A DNA stretch of 64,000 bases from contig JAJTFH010000001.1 in assembly GCA_021298395.1 (NCBI GenBank), positions 1 through 64,000 on the forward strand, in the 5' to 3' direction. How positions within the stretch are numbered: the first letter of the stretch is position 1; every line of letters starts with the position of its first letter. The notes under the pieces were generated by a model, which had not been told where the DNA came from, ran no database searches, and saw only the letters and a program-made list of their open reading frames with translations. A program made the position numbers and the translations under genes. This document shows, piece by piece, positions 9,223 through 63,497 of this stretch. Source of the stretch: Gemmatimonadota bacterium (lineage in GTDB: Bacteria > Gemmatimonadota > Gemmatimonadetes > Gemmatimonadales > Gemmatimonadaceae).

Positions 9223-11144
9223 TCCCCGACGAGGTGGTCGAACAGGTCAGCCAACAGGCCGACATCGTCGCCATCATCGGCGAGCATGTGAAGCTCAAGA
9301 AGACGGGCTCCGTCTGGCGTGGGCCCTGCCCGTTCCATCAGGGGAAGGGGCCGAACTTCTCCGTGGTCCCGGGGCGCGGGTACACCTGCTTCGTCTGCGG
9401 GGAGAAGGGCTCGGTCTTCACCTTCCTGCAGAAGCGGCTGGGGATGAGCTTCGTGGACGCGGTGAAGCTCGCCGGGGCGAAGGCGGGGATCGAGGTGCAG
9501 GAGGTGCAGCGTCGGCGCGAGGGCCCCGATCCGCGCGAGCCGCTCTGGGAGTTGCAGGCGGCGACCTCCGAATTCTTCCAGAAGACCCTGTGGGACGCGC
9601 CGCAGGGGAGTGCCGCGCGCGACTATCTCGCCTCTCGCGATGTGTCACGCGACTTGGCGACACGGTTCGGGCTCGGGTTCGCTTCGCGGGACGGCGAGGC
9701 GTTGCGCACCTATCTGCACGGCCTCGGCTATGACGATGCGCGGCTCACTGCCGCGGGACTCTATCTCCCCCTCGAGGGGAGCGACCAGCTCAAGGCGCGT
9801 TTCCGAGACCGCCTCATCTTCCCGATCCTGGATCAGTCGGGGCACACCGTGGGATTCGGCGGACGTCTCCTCGGACCGGGGGAGCCGAAGTACCTCAACT
9901 CGGCGGAGTCCGAGGTCTTCAACAAGGGGAAGCTCCTCTACCACCTCGGCGCGGCGCGGAATGCGATTCGCAAGGACGATCGCGTCGTGATCGTCGAGGG
10001 GTACTTCGACGCCTTGCGACTCGTCTCGGTCGGGGTCGAGGGGGTCGTCGCCCCGATGGGGACGGCGCTCACCGACGCGCAGGCCGAGCTCCTCGGGCGC
10101 TTCACGCGGCAGGTGGTGCTCTGCTACGACTCCGACGGACCGGGCCAGAAGGCGACCTTCCGCGCGGCGGATCTCCTCCTCGCCAAGGGATTCGTCGTCC
10201 GCGTGGTCACGCTGCCGGAGGGGGAGGATCCCGATACCTTCGCGCGGAGCCAGGGCGGGGCGGCGGTGTCGCGTCTGCTCGACGAGGCGATGGATGTCTT
10301 CGATCGGAAGGTCCAGCTGCTCGAGCGCGCGGGGTGGTTCGCCGATCTCCAACACAAGCGGCAGGCCCTCGATCGGCTCCTCCCGACCATCCGCGCGGCG
10401 AGTGATCCGGTGACGCGCGACCTCTACCTCGCGCGGGCGGCGGAGGCGGCGGGTGTGGCGCGCGAGGCACTGGTGGCGGAGCTGCATGCGGTCCGGCGCG
10501 GGAGCGGGCCGCGTGCGGCGGTCCAACGGCCATCACGTGGGGATGCCACGGCGCCCGACGCGTACGGGGGTGGCCCCGGGGCCGCACCGACGCGCGACGC
10601 TCTGCCGACCGGGCCGTATCGCTCGGGCGTCGAACAGGGGAATGCGGAGCAGGTGCTGCTCCGGGTGGTCCTCACGCAGCCGATGTGGCGCGATCATGTG
10701 ATCGAGGAGCTGGGGAAGCTCGAAGAGTCGGAGCGGCCGGCCAGCGTCGACTTCGGAGGCGATGAGACCGATGGGTTCGGGGAGTCGGCATCGCTCGCCC
10801 TCCGGGACCCGGTCTATGGTATGATCTACCGAGCCCTCCTGATGGTGGGTGAGGCGCTCTCGGCGGAGGCGATCGCCGAGCATCTCGATCCCCTCGCGAT
10901 CCGGGTCTACGAGGAGCTCCGGGCCGATCCGCAGGCGGTCGTCGACGCTCGGGCGAGCGTGGCCGACGCCCTCCGCCAGCTCCGGGGACGGTCGGTTGAT
11001 GCCCGTCTCCGGGCGCTGGAATCCCTCCTCCCATTGGCCGACGCCGCCGAGAAGGACGCCCTGACCCTGCAGATCAAGCGACTTGCCGACGAGAAGCGCT
11101 CGCTCGGCGTGCAGCACTGGGGGATGGTCCGTCGGTCGCGCTGA
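9219..11144 (+). CDS. dnaG: DNA primase DnaG
   Basis: CPFHQGKGPNFSVVPGRGYTCFVCGEKG zinc-binding domain; GFGGRLL, EGYFDALRLVSVGVEGVVAPMGTAL, YDSDGPGQKAT Toprim. Confidence 0.95.
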   Translation: MIPDEVVEQVSQQADIVAIIGEHVKLKKTGSVWRGPCPFHQGKGPNFSVVPGRGYTCFVCGEKGSVFTFLQKRLGMSFVDAVKLAGAKAGIEVQEVQRRREGPDPREPLWELQAATSEFFQKTLWDAPQGSAARDYLASRDVSRDLATRFGLGFASRDGEALRTYLHGLGYDDARLTAAGLYLPLEGSDQLKARFRDRLIFPILDQSGHTVGFGGRLLGPGEPKYLNSAESEVFNKGKLLYHLGAARNAIRKDDRVVIVEGYFDALRLVSVGVEGVVAPMGTALTDAQAELLGRFTRQVVLCYDSDGPGQKATFRAADLLLAKGFVVRVVTLPEGEDPDTFARSQGGAAVSRLLDEAMDVFDRKVQLLERAGWFADLQHKRQALDRLLPTIRAASDPVTRDLYLARAAEAAGVAREALVAELHAVRRGSGPRAAVQRPSRGDATAPDAYGGGPGAAPTRDALPTGPYRSGVEQGNAEQVLLRVVLTQPMWRDHVIEELGKLEESERPASVDFGGDETDGFGESASLALRDPVYGMIYRALLMVGEALSAEAIAEHLDPLAIRVYEELRADPQAVVDARASVADALRQLRGRSVDARLRALESLLPLADAAEKDALTLQIKRLADEKRSLGVQHWGMVRRSR

Positions 11145-11186
11145 CCCCATCTTTCCTTCCTCTCCTCTCTCCCCATCGATCCCTTC

Positions 11187-11888
11187 ATGTCCGATCTTCG
11201 CGCCCTGCTCGCCCTCCAAGACGACGACCTCGCCATCCATGTGCTGGAGCAGCGCCTCGCCGCACTCGAGCCGCGCATCCGCGAGCTCGATACCCGGCGG
11301 CAACGGATCGTCGACACCATGGAGCGCCAGTCGACGGCGTTGCAGGCGGAGGAGAAGAAGCAGGCCTTCCTGCGCGACAAGATCGCGGAGCACCGGGAGC
11401 TGATCGCCCGCAACCAGGCACAGCTCGATGCGGTGAAGACGATGCGCCAAGCGACGGCCGCCGCAGCCCAGATGGATCAGGCGAAGCGGATCGTCGCGGG
11501 AGAGGAGAGCGATCTCCACGTCATCACCCGACGCGTGGAGGAGCTCCGCGCGGGGCGCGCGGCCTCGACCGCCGACCTCGAGGCGTGTGAGGCGGAGCAG
11601 GCGACGGCGCGCGGTGAGGTGGCGACGGAGCGTGCGTCGATCGATGGCGAGCTCGCGGTCGCTCGCGCTACGCGTGACGAGACGGCGAAGGCCGTTCCCG
11701 CCGGGCTGCGGAGCCGCTACGACCGCATCCGCAACGCCAAGCGCGTGCATGTGGTGGTCGCCCTCAACGCCCTTGCCTGCGGCGCCTGTGACACCGCGAT
11801 CCCGATGCAGCGTCGACATGCGATGATGTCGGGGACGGCGATCGAGCTCTGTGAGGCGTGCGGTGTCCTGATGTATCACGCGGTGTGA
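11187..11888 (+). CDS. C4-type zinc ribbon / coiled-coil protein (CdsZ-like)
   Basis: N-terminal coiled coil and C-terminal ACGACDTAIPMQRRHAM...ELCEACGVLMYH zinc ribbon. Confidence 0.8.
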   Translation: MSDLRALLALQDDDLAIHVLEQRLAALEPRIRELDTRRQRIVDTMERQSTALQAEEKKQAFLRDKIAEHRELIARNQAQLDAVKTMRQATAAAAQMDQAKRIVAGEESDLHVITRRVEELRAGRAASTADLEACEAEQATARGEVATERASIDGELAVARATRDETAKAVPAGLRSRYDRIRNAKRVHVVVALNALACGACDTAIPMQRRHAMMSGTAIELCEACGVLMYHAV

Positions 11889-13624
11889 GCCGGAGTCGGC
11901 CGGCCTCCCGCTGGCTCCCACCGGCGACGGCGCCGGCGGCAATCGCCGAGGCGCTGGCCGGAGCGCTCACCCCATCGGGGGACCAACCGGGGAAACAGGC
12001 GGTCCCTCTCGCCATCTGTCAGCTCCTCGCGGCACGCGGGATCCATTCCGTCGATGTGGCCAGGCGCTTCCTGCGCCCGTCGCTCGACCAGGTGGAATCC
12101 CCTGAGGCGATGATCGATCTCCCGCGCGCGGCGGACCGTCTCGCGCGCGCGGTGGAGCGCGGGGAACCGATCCTCGTGCATGGCGACTACGACGTGGATG
12201 GGATCTGCTCCACGACCGTCATGACCAAGGTCCTGCGCGGACTCGGCGGGGTCGTCACCCCGTTCATCCCCGACCGGATCACCGATGGATACGACCTCGG
12301 GCCGGCGGGGATCGCCGCGGCGCACCGTATCGGGGCGAAGGTGGTCCTGACCTGTGACTGCGGCACCTCAGCGGTCGAGTCGGCGGCGGCGCTCCGAGCA
12401 GCCAAGATCGACCTGATCATCACGGATCACCACCTGCCCGGGGGCGCGCTCCCTGAGGCGTTCGCGGTGGTGAACCCCAAGCGGGCGGATTGTCCGTCGG
12501 TCGATAAGGATCTCGCCGCGGTCGGGGTGGCGTACAAGCTCGCGCGGGCCGTGGTCGCACGCTGTGGTGGCGATCCCGCGGCGGTGGACGATCTGCTCGA
12601 CCTCGTCGCACTGGCGACGATCGCCGACGTGGCGCCGTTGCGTGGGGAGAATCGCGTCTTCGCTCGCCTTGGGTTGAAGCAGTTGGCGGCGAGTTCGCAT
12701 CCCGGTATCCGGTCCCTGCTGCGTGCGGCACGCCTCGATGGGAAGCCACTCACGGCGGGGCGCGTAGGATTTACGCTCGCGCCGCGTCTCAACGCGCTCG
12801 GCCGACTCGGGCAGGCGATCCGTGGGGTGGAGCTGCTGCTGGCCGAAGATGAAGCGACCGCCAATGTCATCGCGCGCGAGTGCGAGGAGCTCAACGCCGA
12901 GCGGCAGGCGATGAACCGGCAGATGCTCGACGAGGCGATGCGTCGGGTGGAGCAGCTCGATCTCGATGCGACCTGGGGGATCGTCCTCGCGCAGGAGGGG
13001 TGGCATCCCGGGGTGATCGGGATCGTCGCCTCGCGCTTGGTGGAGGCCACCTCGCGTCCGGTGATGATGGTCGCCGTGCACGATGGAGTGGGGAAGGGCT
13101 CTGGGCGATCGATCTCCGCCCTCGACCTCCACGGCGTGTTGCACGACTGCGCCGATCTCCTGGTGCGCTTCGGAGGGCACCGGGCGGCCGCGGGGATCAC
13201 CATCGAGGCGGCGCGACTCCGTGCGTTCAGCGAGTGCTTCAACGAGCAGGTGCGGTCGCGACTCACCGCGGAGGATCTGGTGCCGACCCTCCGCACCGAT
13301 CTCGAGCTCCCGATCGACGCGATCGATGAGACCCTCGATCGGGGGCTCCGGCATCTGGAGCCGTTCGGGGTGGGGAATCCCGGGCCGATCTTCGTCTCCC
13401 GTGGGGTGAAGGTGGCGCAGGGGCCGCGTCGGATCGGGACCGAAGGGGTCAAGCTCGGGCTCGAGACACCGGGCGGATCACTCGAGGGGATCTGTTGGGA
13501 TGGGGCGCGCGCCAAGGGGCTCGCCGTCGGCGCGACGGTCGACATCGCCTACAAGCTCGAAGCCAACGAGTATCAGGGCCGTCGCACGCTGCAGGCGGTG
13601 ATCCAGGATCTCCGGCATGGGTGA
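11885..13624 (+). CDS. recJ: Single-stranded-DNA-specific exonuclease RecJ
   Basis: VHGDYDVDGICSTTVM, TCDCGTS, ITDHHLPGGALP, SGRSISALDLHGVL, FGGHRAAAGITI motifs. Confidence 0.95.
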   Translation: MSRSRPASRWLPPATAPAAIAEALAGALTPSGDQPGKQAVPLAICQLLAARGIHSVDVARRFLRPSLDQVESPEAMIDLPRAADRLARAVERGEPILVHGDYDVDGICSTTVMTKVLRGLGGVVTPFIPDRITDGYDLGPAGIAAAHRIGAKVVLTCDCGTSAVESAAALRAAKIDLIITDHHLPGGALPEAFAVVNPKRADCPSVDKDLAAVGVAYKLARAVVARCGGDPAAVDDLLDLVALATIADVAPLRGENRVFARLGLKQLAASSHPGIRSLLRAARLDGKPLTAGRVGFTLAPRLNALGRLGQAIRGVELLLAEDEATANVIARECEELNAERQAMNRQMLDEAMRRVEQLDLDATWGIVLAQEGWHPGVIGIVASRLVEATSRPVMMVAVHDGVGKGSGRSISALDLHGVLHDCADLLVRFGGHRAAAGITIEAARLRAFSECFNEQVRSRLTAEDLVPTLRTDLELPIDAIDETLDRGLRHLEPFGVGNPGPIFVSRGVKVAQGPRRIGTEGVKLGLETPGGSLEGICWDGARAKGLAVGATVDIAYKLEANEYQGRRTLQAVIQDLRHG

Positions 13625-60068: not shown

Positions 60069-61184
60069 ATGAAGATCGGTATCCCGAAGGAGATCAAGAC
60101 CAACGAGAATCGCGTCTCGATGGTCCCCGCTGGCGCGGAGGCCCTCGTCGCGGCGGGCCACACCGTCTACGTGGAGCAGGGGGCCGGGGACGGCTCCGGC
60201 TTCGGTGACGACCAGTATGTGGCGGTCGGCGCCAAGATCCTCCCCACCGCGGACGCGGTGTGGAAGGAGGCGGAGATGATCGTGAAGGTGAAGGAGCCGA
60301 TCGCGGTCGAGTGGCCGCGGATGCGGAAGGGGCAGACGATCTTCACCTACTTCCACTTCGCCGCCGACGAGAAGCTGACGCGGGCGCACCTCGATTCGGG
60401 GGCGACCTGCATCGCGTACGAGACGGTCGAGCTCCCGACGCGCGAGCTCCCGCTCCTGACGCCGATGTCCGAGGTCGCGGGACGCATGGCGGTGCAGGAG
60501 GGGGCCAAGTATCTCGAGAAGCTCTACGGCGGGCGTGGCGTGCTGCTGGGCGGCGTCCCGGGCGTGCCGCCGGCCAAGGTCGTGATCCTGGGCGGTGGCG
60601 TCGTCGGCGTGAACGCCGCGAAGATGGCGGCGGGGTTCGGGGCGAAGGTCACGATCATGGATACCTCGCTCCCGCGGCTCCGCTATCTGAGCGACGTGAT
60701 GCCGGCGAACGTGCAGATGATCTTCTCCAACCGGCAGAATGTCCTCGAGCAGATCAGCACGGCGGACCTGGTGGTCGGCGGCGTGCTCCTGCCGGGCGCC
60801 AAGGCGCCGAAGCTCATCCGTCGCGAGGACCTCAAGCTGATGCGGCCGGGGGCGGTGATCGTCGACGTGGCGATCGACCAGGGTGGGTGTGTCGAGACGA
60901 TCAAGGCGACCACGCACGAGAACCCGGTCTACACGGTCGACGGGATCATCCACTACGGGGTGGCGAACATGCCCGGTGGGGTCCCGCGCACCTCGACGCT
61001 CGCGCTCACGAATGCGACGCTCCCCTATGCGCTCAAGCTCGCGAACAAGGGGTGGAAGCAGGCCCTCCGTGAGGACGGCGCGCTCCTCAAGGGGCTCAAC
61101 GTGGTCGACGGCAAGGTGACCTATCAGGGCGTCGCCGAGGCCTTCGGGATGGACTACCACGCGCCGGAGCAGTTCGTCAAATAA
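60069..61184 (+). CDS. ald: Alanine dehydrogenase
   Basis: MKIGIPKEIKTNENRVSMVPAGAEALVAAGHTVYVEQGAGDGSGFGDDQY; VVILGGGVVGVNAAKMAAGFGA; DVAIDQGGCVET. Confidence 0.96.
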   Translation: MKIGIPKEIKTNENRVSMVPAGAEALVAAGHTVYVEQGAGDGSGFGDDQYVAVGAKILPTADAVWKEAEMIVKVKEPIAVEWPRMRKGQTIFTYFHFAADEKLTRAHLDSGATCIAYETVELPTRELPLLTPMSEVAGRMAVQEGAKYLEKLYGGRGVLLGGVPGVPPAKVVILGGGVVGVNAAKMAAGFGAKVTIMDTSLPRLRYLSDVMPANVQMIFSNRQNVLEQISTADLVVGGVLLPGAKAPKLIRREDLKLMRPGAVIVDVAIDQGGCVETIKATTHENPVYTVDGIIHYGVANMPGGVPRTSTLALTNATLPYALKLANKGWKQALREDGALLKGLNVVDGKVTYQGVAEAFGMDYHAPEQFVK

Positions 61185-61186
61185 TC

Positions 61187-62362
61187 GTGCGCGTCGTCGC
61201 CTGGCGGGTCCTCCTGGCGGTCGGGGTGCTGAGCACCTCGGCCGCCGGTGCGCTTTCCGCCCAGGCCGGCGCGCGCGGTGGGGTGGTGCGCGATGAGCTT
61301 GGGCGCGCGCTCGCTGGGGTGCGGATCGATCCCGTCGAGGTGTCGCTCGAGGCCGGTGTCGTCCTGCCGAGTGGCGCCCCGCTCACCGCGACCGACCTCG
61401 CGGGACGGTTCCGGCTGACCGAGGCGGCGCTCGGGCGCGCGGAGGCGGTGGTCTTCCGGCGGTTGGGGTTCCGGCCGGATACCGCTCGACTGGCCGACCT
61501 CCCCCTCGGTGCGGTAGCGGAGCGCACGCTGCAGCGCCTCGCCCTGCCGTTGCCCGCGATGACCGTGACGGGGCGCCGGGAGGTGCGCGGCCCCCTCGCG
61601 GGGTTCTACCAGCGCCGCGCGCAGGGGATGGGGCGGTTCTTCACCGCCGAGGAGATCGAGCGGCGCGGACTCCGGCGCCCCTCCGACCTGATCCGTGGGG
61701 TGCCGGGGGTGCAGGTCGTCCCCCTCCGAGCTGGACGGGTCGCGTACCGGATCCGTGGGTCGAACATGGCCCCCCTGATCTGGCTCGACGGGAACCCGAT
61801 GACCGCGGCCGAGCTCGACCTCGATGCCTTCGACCTGCGCAGCTTCGCTGGGATCGAGATCTATGCGGGGGCGGCGACGGTGCCGCCGCAGTTCACCGGG
61901 GGGCGGATGATGTCGTCGAGCGGGGGCGCGATCGTGCTCTGGTCGCGCGAGGGGGAGGCGCAGCCCGCGCGTCGGGCGCGACGAGGGGAGCCGACCCCTG
62001 CCGAGGTCCTCGCCCGGCTGGTGGCCGAGGCGACGGTCTGGACCGCGGATGCGGTGGATGAGCCGGCGCGCGCGATTGTGGCGACGGAGGTGGCGCCCCT
62101 CTACCCGGACTCGCTCTTCGACGCGGGGATGCCCGGGGACGTGGAGGTCGAGTTCGTGGTCGACGCCACGGGGGAGATCCGGCTGGACACCTTCGGCGTG
62201 GTGTCGGCGACCCACCCCCTGTTGGTTGAGGCAGTCCGGCGGAGTCTGGCCGAACGGCGATTCGTCCCGGCGCGGAAGGCGGGGGTCGCGGTGGCGCAGC
62301 TGGTGCAGTACCCGGTCCGGTTCGAACCGCCATCCGGGGCGGACCGCGTCCCACCGACGTAA
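61187..62362 (+). CDS. Secreted chimera: carboxypeptidase-regulatory-like domain + TonB-receptor plug domain + TonB C-terminal domain (no beta-barrel)
   Basis: Signal peptide MRVVAWRVLLAVGVLSTSAAGALSAQ; FTAEEIERRGLRRPSDLIRGVPGVQVVPLRAGRVAYRIRGSNMAPLIWLDGNPM (plug); PLYPDSLFDAGMPGDVEVEFVVDATGEIRLDTFGVVSATHPLLVEAVRRSLAERRFVPARKAGVAVAQLVQYPVRFEP (TonB_C). Confidence 0.8.
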   Translation: MRVVAWRVLLAVGVLSTSAAGALSAQAGARGGVVRDELGRALAGVRIDPVEVSLEAGVVLPSGAPLTATDLAGRFRLTEAALGRAEAVVFRRLGFRPDTARLADLPLGAVAERTLQRLALPLPAMTVTGRREVRGPLAGFYQRRAQGMGRFFTAEEIERRGLRRPSDLIRGVPGVQVVPLRAGRVAYRIRGSNMAPLIWLDGNPMTAAELDLDAFDLRSFAGIEIYAGAATVPPQFTGGRMMSSSGGAIVLWSREGEAQPARRARRGEPTPAEVLARLVAEATVWTADAVDEPARAIVATEVAPLYPDSLFDAGMPGDVEVEFVVDATGEIRLDTFGVVSATHPLLVEAVRRSLAERRFVPARKAGVAVAQLVQYPVRFEPPSGADRVPPT

Positions 62363-62459: not shown

Positions 62460-63497
62460 ATGCGTTGGCCCTCCTTCAATCCCGCTGGTCTCCTCACGGC
62501 GAATTCGATCGCCGTGGACCTCGGCACCGCGAACACCCTCGTCTACGTGAAAGGCGAGGGGATCGTGCTCAACGAGCCGTCGGTCGTCGCGATCGATCGC
62601 GAGACGAAGAAGATCAAAGGCGTGGGGCTCGAGGCGAAGCGGATGTTGGGCCGCACACCGGAAGGGGTGCTCGCCGTTCGGCCGATGAAGGATGGGGTGA
62701 TCGCCGACTTCGAGATCACCGAGAAGATGCTGCGCTTCTTCCTCGAGTTGATCATCAAGAACCATCCGTTCCGCGTGAAGCCACGCGTGATCGTCTGCGT
62801 CCCCTCGGGAATCACCGAGGTCGAACGTCGCGCCGTGCGCGACTCCGCACTCGGCGCGGGCGCGAAGGAGGTCTTCATGGTCGCCGAGCCGATGGCGGCG
62901 GCGATCGGTGTGGGGCTCCCGGTCGAGACGCCGACGGGGAACATGGTGATCGACATCGGTGGCGGGACGACGGAGATCGCGGTCATCGCGCTCTCGGGGA
63001 TGGTCTCGGACACCTCGATCCGCGTGGGTGGCGACGAACTCGACACGAGCATCGTGCAGTTCATGCGCAAGCAGTACAACCTGCTGATCGGCGAGCCGAC
63101 GGCGGAGCAGATCAAGATCCAGATCGGCTCGGCGGCCCCGCTCGGCGAGGAGCGCGAGATGGAGGTGAAGGGTCGCGATCTCGTCTCGGGGATCCCGAAG
63201 ACGGTGCGTGTGCACTCGGTGGAGATCCGCGAGGCGGTGCAGGAACCGATCCAGCAGATCGTGAATGCGGTGCGACGCGCGCTCGAGATCACGCCGCCCG
63301 AGCTCGCCTCCGACATCGTCGATCGTGGGATCGTGATGACCGGCGGGGGCGCGTTGATCCGTGGCCTCGATGTGCTGCTCACGCAGGAGACGGGGCTGCC
63401 GATCCATGTGGACGAGGATCCGCTCACCTGCGTGGTGCGTGGGACCGGCCGCATCCTCGACGACGAGGAGAAGTACTGGTCGGTGCTCACCACCTGA
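62460..63497 (+). CDS. mreB: Rod-shape-determining protein MreB
   Basis: [61 protein letters not shown]. Confidence 0.97.

Follow-up and report, generated by a model that had tools for sequence, protein, structure and literature searches.

The textbook picture of the Ton system has one TonB in direct contact with each receptor, and how one TonB, or a few, are shared among many outer-membrane receptors is an unsettled question. The stretch of 64,000 nucleotides analysed here (the window; Gemmatimonadota bacterium, GenBank assembly GCA_021298395.1, contig JAJTFH010000001.1) encodes a protein that bears on this question, joining a receptor plug and a TonB C-terminal domain (CTD) on a single chain: what does such a chimera do? 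The initial annotation had read its product as a signal peptide, a carboxypeptidase-regulatory-like domain, a plug-like segment and a TonB_C-like domain, in that order, which was borne out for the domains by Pfam and by AlphaFold2 with Foldseek, while the signal peptide is probable as judged by eye. The features of the locus are as follows.

60069..61184, + strand: ald (alanine dehydrogenase), putative from the earlier sequence reading, with synteny; its stop lies 2 bp before the chimera ORF
61187..62362, + strand: chimera gene (plug plus TonB_C), complete, 391 aa, GTG start; orthologues 90% and 80% identical in two sister genomes
61187..61267, + strand: probable Sec signal peptide, aa 1-27, ending in GALSAQA and followed by GARG; read by eye, AlphaFold2 pLDDT below 50 for aa 1-26
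61271..61531, + strand: domain resembling CarboxypepD_reg and the SusC N-terminal extension (NTE), aa 29-115; Pfam, and Foldseek to the NTE of SusC BT3090 (9hfj)
61553..61576, + strand: TonB-box-like strand PAMTVTGR, aa 123-130; neither V127 nor G129 varies among 20 homologues
61634..61945, + strand: Plug domain of a TonB-dependent receptor, aa 150-253, with its last strand included and no barrel following; Pfam Plug and Foldseek
61766..61768, + strand: position 194, Met in the window protein and Cys in half of the homologues, pairing with position 246
61922..61924, + strand: position 246, Gly in the window protein and Cys in half of the homologues, putative disulfide partner of position 194
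61946..62086, + strand: linker with a short helix and the conserved motif VFTADxVDxPA, aa 254-300
62093..62326, + strand: TonB CTD, aa 303-380; Pfam TonB_C, 6i97_D, and 42% identity to the genome's own TonB
62460..63497, + strand: mreB, putative from the earlier sequence reading, with synteny; about 100 bp beyond the chimera ORF

The window protein passes the curated Pfam cut-offs for Plug (PF07715, E-value 7.3e-10, aa 152-232) and TonB_C (PF03544, E-value 1.7e-7, aa 303-380). CarboxypepD_reg stays under its cut-off (E-value 0.0065), but all three domains are matched in 28/28 full-length homologues, CarboxypepD_reg with E-values down to 8.8e-20, so the weak N-terminal domain is considered real. 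These 28, which include the window protein, were found among the best matches from a search of 61 genomes, and the other 27 are 30-91% identical to it. The barrel domain PF00593 was matched in none of the 28, the 391-residue window protein included, and the initial annotation had likewise seen no barrel. Among the NCBIfam models TIGR01352 scores 24.0, slightly below its cut-off of 27.1, and the top match is the MxcH receptor model NF038079 via model positions 7-91, at 30 bits against an equivalog cut-off of 925, which places the protein outside that family.

An AlphaFold2 model, built with 20 sequences (pLDDT 74.9, pTM 0.59), was compared with the PDB by means of Foldseek. The modelled C-terminal domain resembles the Pseudomonas aeruginosa TonB CTD 6i97_D (TMt 0.89, 1.7 Å), the plug resembles the plugs of the TonB-dependent transporters (TBDTs) PhuR, CirA and BtuB, and the N-terminal domain that of SusC BT3090 (9hfj); each domain therefore has the fold initially assigned to it. 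No second hydrophobic anchor was seen when the sequence was read by eye, and the chimera is probably a secreted, soluble periplasmic protein.

The strand PAMTVTGR sits between the first domain and the plug, its VxG being invariant within an otherwise poorly ordered linker, and TBDTs of the same genome show VTVTGR or VVVTGT at the equivalent position. It may act as a TonB box; with the TonB CTD further along, one chain would then seem to carry a box as well as a domain that binds such boxes. Positions 194 and 246 covary: both are Cys in 13 homologues and neither is in 14, while the one exception among the 28 looks like a one-column misalignment. Such covariation points to a disulfide staple of the free plug, of which both cysteines were lost on the branch of the window protein.

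The chimera is under purifying selection, with dN/dS values of 0.16 and 0.20 against two close orthologues and the lowest values (0.05-0.16) in box, plug and linker. In a survey of 395 genomes of the phylum, with four candidates scored per genome, the full architecture (a match that reaches query end 340 or more) was counted by hand from the matches listed in at least 75 genomes, all of the window's family, the Gemmatimonadaceae. The matches listed from other families end near position 265 and are plug-only, and such plug-only relatives are commoner in the phylum than tailed chimeras. Named records with chimera relatives are nearly all Gemmatimonadota, several of them lake-derived, in a profile search sensitive to close relatives only. 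The chimera is present in three single-contig genomes of one genus, and no full-length match was found in the plasmid collection.

Concerning its origin, a TonB_C tree places 21 of the 22 chimera tails sampled in a single clade, adjacent to a group in which the TonBs of the lineage are found (local support 0.83 and 0.88), and the chimera CTD is 42% identical to the CTD of the genome's own TonB. On the best reading, the N-terminus of a SusC gave rise to the plug half, and the TonB of the lineage itself to the tail. The simplest account would be that a widespread plug-only, SusCD-associated secreted protein, built from the N-terminal half of SusC, gained a TonB tail in the Gemmatimonadaceae. The tail of the remaining chimera (L047:7689-9563) falls outside this clade, beside a divergent TonB_C protein, and may represent a second, independent fusion.

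The gene order ald-chimera-mreB is common to members of the window's genus and specific to it. In the same slot, one sister species has ald-chimera-SusC-SusD-chimera-mreB (L042) and another ald-SusC-SusD-chimera-mreB (L052). To describe the neighbourhood more widely, 54 loci were counted by hand after removal of duplicate records, a non-random sample composed of 24 full-length matches in near relatives, 19 picks from the phylum survey, ten named records and the window. SusC and/or SusD directly adjoin the chimera on the same strand in 17 of these, both as chimera-SusC-SusD and as SusC-SusD-chimera; the other 37 have no adjacent SusCD, the window's locus included, and some of them are contig ends or close relatives. 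Since a genome has 3-17 SusD matches, chance adjacency is expected at about 1% or less by a rough estimate. The SusC neighbours are TBDTs by Pfam and those tested all carry a plug of their own. Their SusD partners mostly lack Pfam matches; a profile of them matches solved SusD homologues with an E-value of 1.5e-15 in a PDB profile search. The adaptor, decoy or regulator of TonB-dependent transport that the initial annotation had envisaged is thus supported in outline by the SusC/SusD linkage. With its frequent place beside SusCD, the chimera probably assists or regulates the engagement of these transporters by TonB.

Several further frames deserve mention. The window's own genome encodes, on another contig (L039:7769-8668), a 300-residue plug-only relative directly after a SusC-SusD pair, a tail-less version of the chimera. 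In a single-contig genome (L128:9595-11052 and 10983-12566) the chimera is followed by two tandem secreted proteins, whose ORFs overlap by 70 bp and which carry repeats of a CarboxypepD_reg-like segment and a free plug with the Cys pair. At L055:10017-10736 one frame runs from part of a transketolase into the last part of a SusD-like protein, probably through misassembly or as a frame artefact.

Two TonB_C domains are present in the window's genome (1.82 Mb), that of the chimera and that of a TonB with an anchor-like N-terminus on another contig. Downstream of this TonB lie a 246-residue ORF, read from position and sequence as a putative ExbB, and two Pfam-confirmed ExbD genes. That no ExbB/ExbD stands beside the chimera therefore holds locally, while the genome at large does have a TonB-ExbB-ExbD-ExbD cluster. 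It further shows 18 plug matches and 11 Pfam barrels, with a plug match on every barrel-bearing contig; the SusD profile matches it three times, once partially and weakly. Other TonB_C proteins were met as well: four loci (L099, L107, L111 and L116) encode short TonB_C-only proteins with an N-terminus like a signal peptide or lipoprotein signal, unlike a TonB anchor, and a 682-residue frame (L110) combines a hydrophobic N-terminal part with two successive TonB_C domains.

We tentatively favour, at somewhat under even odds, an in-series adaptor: a soluble protein of the periplasm that assists TonB-dependent uptake of the SusCD type. Its N-terminal half would copy the periplasm-facing half of SusC (N-terminal extension, TonB box and plug), and the tip of the TonB native to the lineage would be copied by its C-terminal domain; inner-membrane TonB would grip the chimera's box, the chimera's CTD would grip the box of a SusC partner, and the set of receptors that TonB can pull would thereby be selected or extended. 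In its strict form, a relay in which one soluble protein is both TonB client (box, plug) and TonB mimic (CTD) and passes force in series from TonB to SusC-type receptors, the proposal is unlikely. In favour of the adaptor are the three domains common to all 28 homologues with their SusC/RagA matches, the TonB fold and the clade of the CTD, the invariant VxG, the SusCD linkage in 17 of 54 loci, the low dN/dS, and retention of the chimera in a 1.82 Mb genome with only two TonB_C domains. A part in TonB engagement fits published work: TonB CTD and Ton box stay in contact under force long enough for half a plug to unfold (PMC5413942), a role in TonB specificity has been suggested for the SusC NTE, whose deletion abolishes growth on levan (PMC7782687), and in a two-hybrid assay the TBDT Oar binds a TonB CTD through its NTE-plug half (PMC6434023). 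Against the adaptor, 37 of the 54 loci have no SusCD next to the chimera, the CTD could fold back onto the box of its own chain, the Cys pair that would make a plug stiffer under force is absent from the window protein, and the tail is dispensable for basic function given that the relatives without it are the commoner form. A conserved soluble carrier of receptor-side and TonB-side interaction modules that is encoded together with SusCD would add a new level of control or coupling to the Ton system.

The main rival is a decoy or cap, in which idle SusC receptors would have their TonB boxes covered by the free CTD, and/or TonB would be occupied by the free box and plug, limiting futile TonB engagement with no need for force transmission. 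Box and CTD are indeed both present and unanchored, and the plug-only relatives beside SusCD, such as that of the window's own genome, could likewise compete for TonB. However, a decoy does not explain why both halves stay on one chain in at least 75 genomes or why the TonB-derived CTDs form a clade, and we hold the decoy to be doubtful, preferring the in-series adaptor.

An envelope protein, whose TonB_C would bind peptidoglycan and serve the wall or cell shape in connection with mreBC, is improbable. This was the alternative initially proposed from the ald and mreBC neighbours; mreB is adjacent in the window's genus, secreted TonB_C-only proteins also occur, and Anabaena TonB1/SjdR provides a precedent (PMC8597729). 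Nevertheless, the proposal is weakened by the sister species that have SusCD in this slot, and because the mreB linkage is genus-specific, whereas SusCD linkage recurs across genera, a wall link is not our primary reading; it would also give the conserved box and plug no part. A plug acting in trans, that is a free plug entering the barrel of a receptor, would suit the completeness of the plug domain, but the adjacent SusC proteins tested have plugs of their own, as do the barrel-bearing contigs of the genome by their plug matches, and the TonB_C tail would be left over; this very unlikely option is therefore set aside. An assembly artefact, a decaying receptor fragment or chance similarity, for which the missing barrel and the MAG origin might speak, is refuted by conservation and has next to no probability, the open frame and the same architecture recurring in many independent assemblies, single-contig genomes included, with dN/dS of 0.16-0.20.

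The component domains are known, as is the idea of TonB_C together with a TBDT on one chain, and our literature search found no published description of the plug-TonB_C architecture or of the Gemmatimonadota plug-only proteins. SjdR/TonB1 of Anabaena, like the chimera, has a TonB-like domain, which in SjdR serves a purpose other than TonB-dependent transport, but it acts in septal peptidoglycan and no plug or NTE is reported for it (PMC8597729). The myxochelin receptor model MxcH (NF038079) combines a TonB_C-like stretch and a TBDT in one profile, so that the initial claim of a strict division in known systems, plug in the receptor and TonB_C in the energiser, was too strong; there, however, TonB_C is N-terminal (positions 7-91) in a receptor model of 792 positions, whereas the chimera has 391 residues, a C-terminal TonB_C and no barrel. 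The secreted CarboxypepD_reg-Plug proteins of Gemmatimonadota share the N-terminal half, often with the Cys pair, and some lie beside SusCD, but they lack the TonB_C tail. With the TonB energiser (PF03544) the chimera has the fold and sequence of the CTD in common, as the identity to its own genome's TonB illustrates; it differs in its signal-peptide-like N-terminus, with no inner-membrane anchor seen, in a linker of about 50 residues without Pro-rich character, and in the lack of ExbB/ExbD linkage. SusC/RagA TBDTs, whose model TIGR04056 is matched by 16 of the 28 homologues, show NTE (CarboxypepD_reg), TonB box and plug in like order, the chimera having a TonB-box-like strand in the place of the box, but where their 22-strand outer-membrane β-barrel would begin the chimera carries a TonB CTD.
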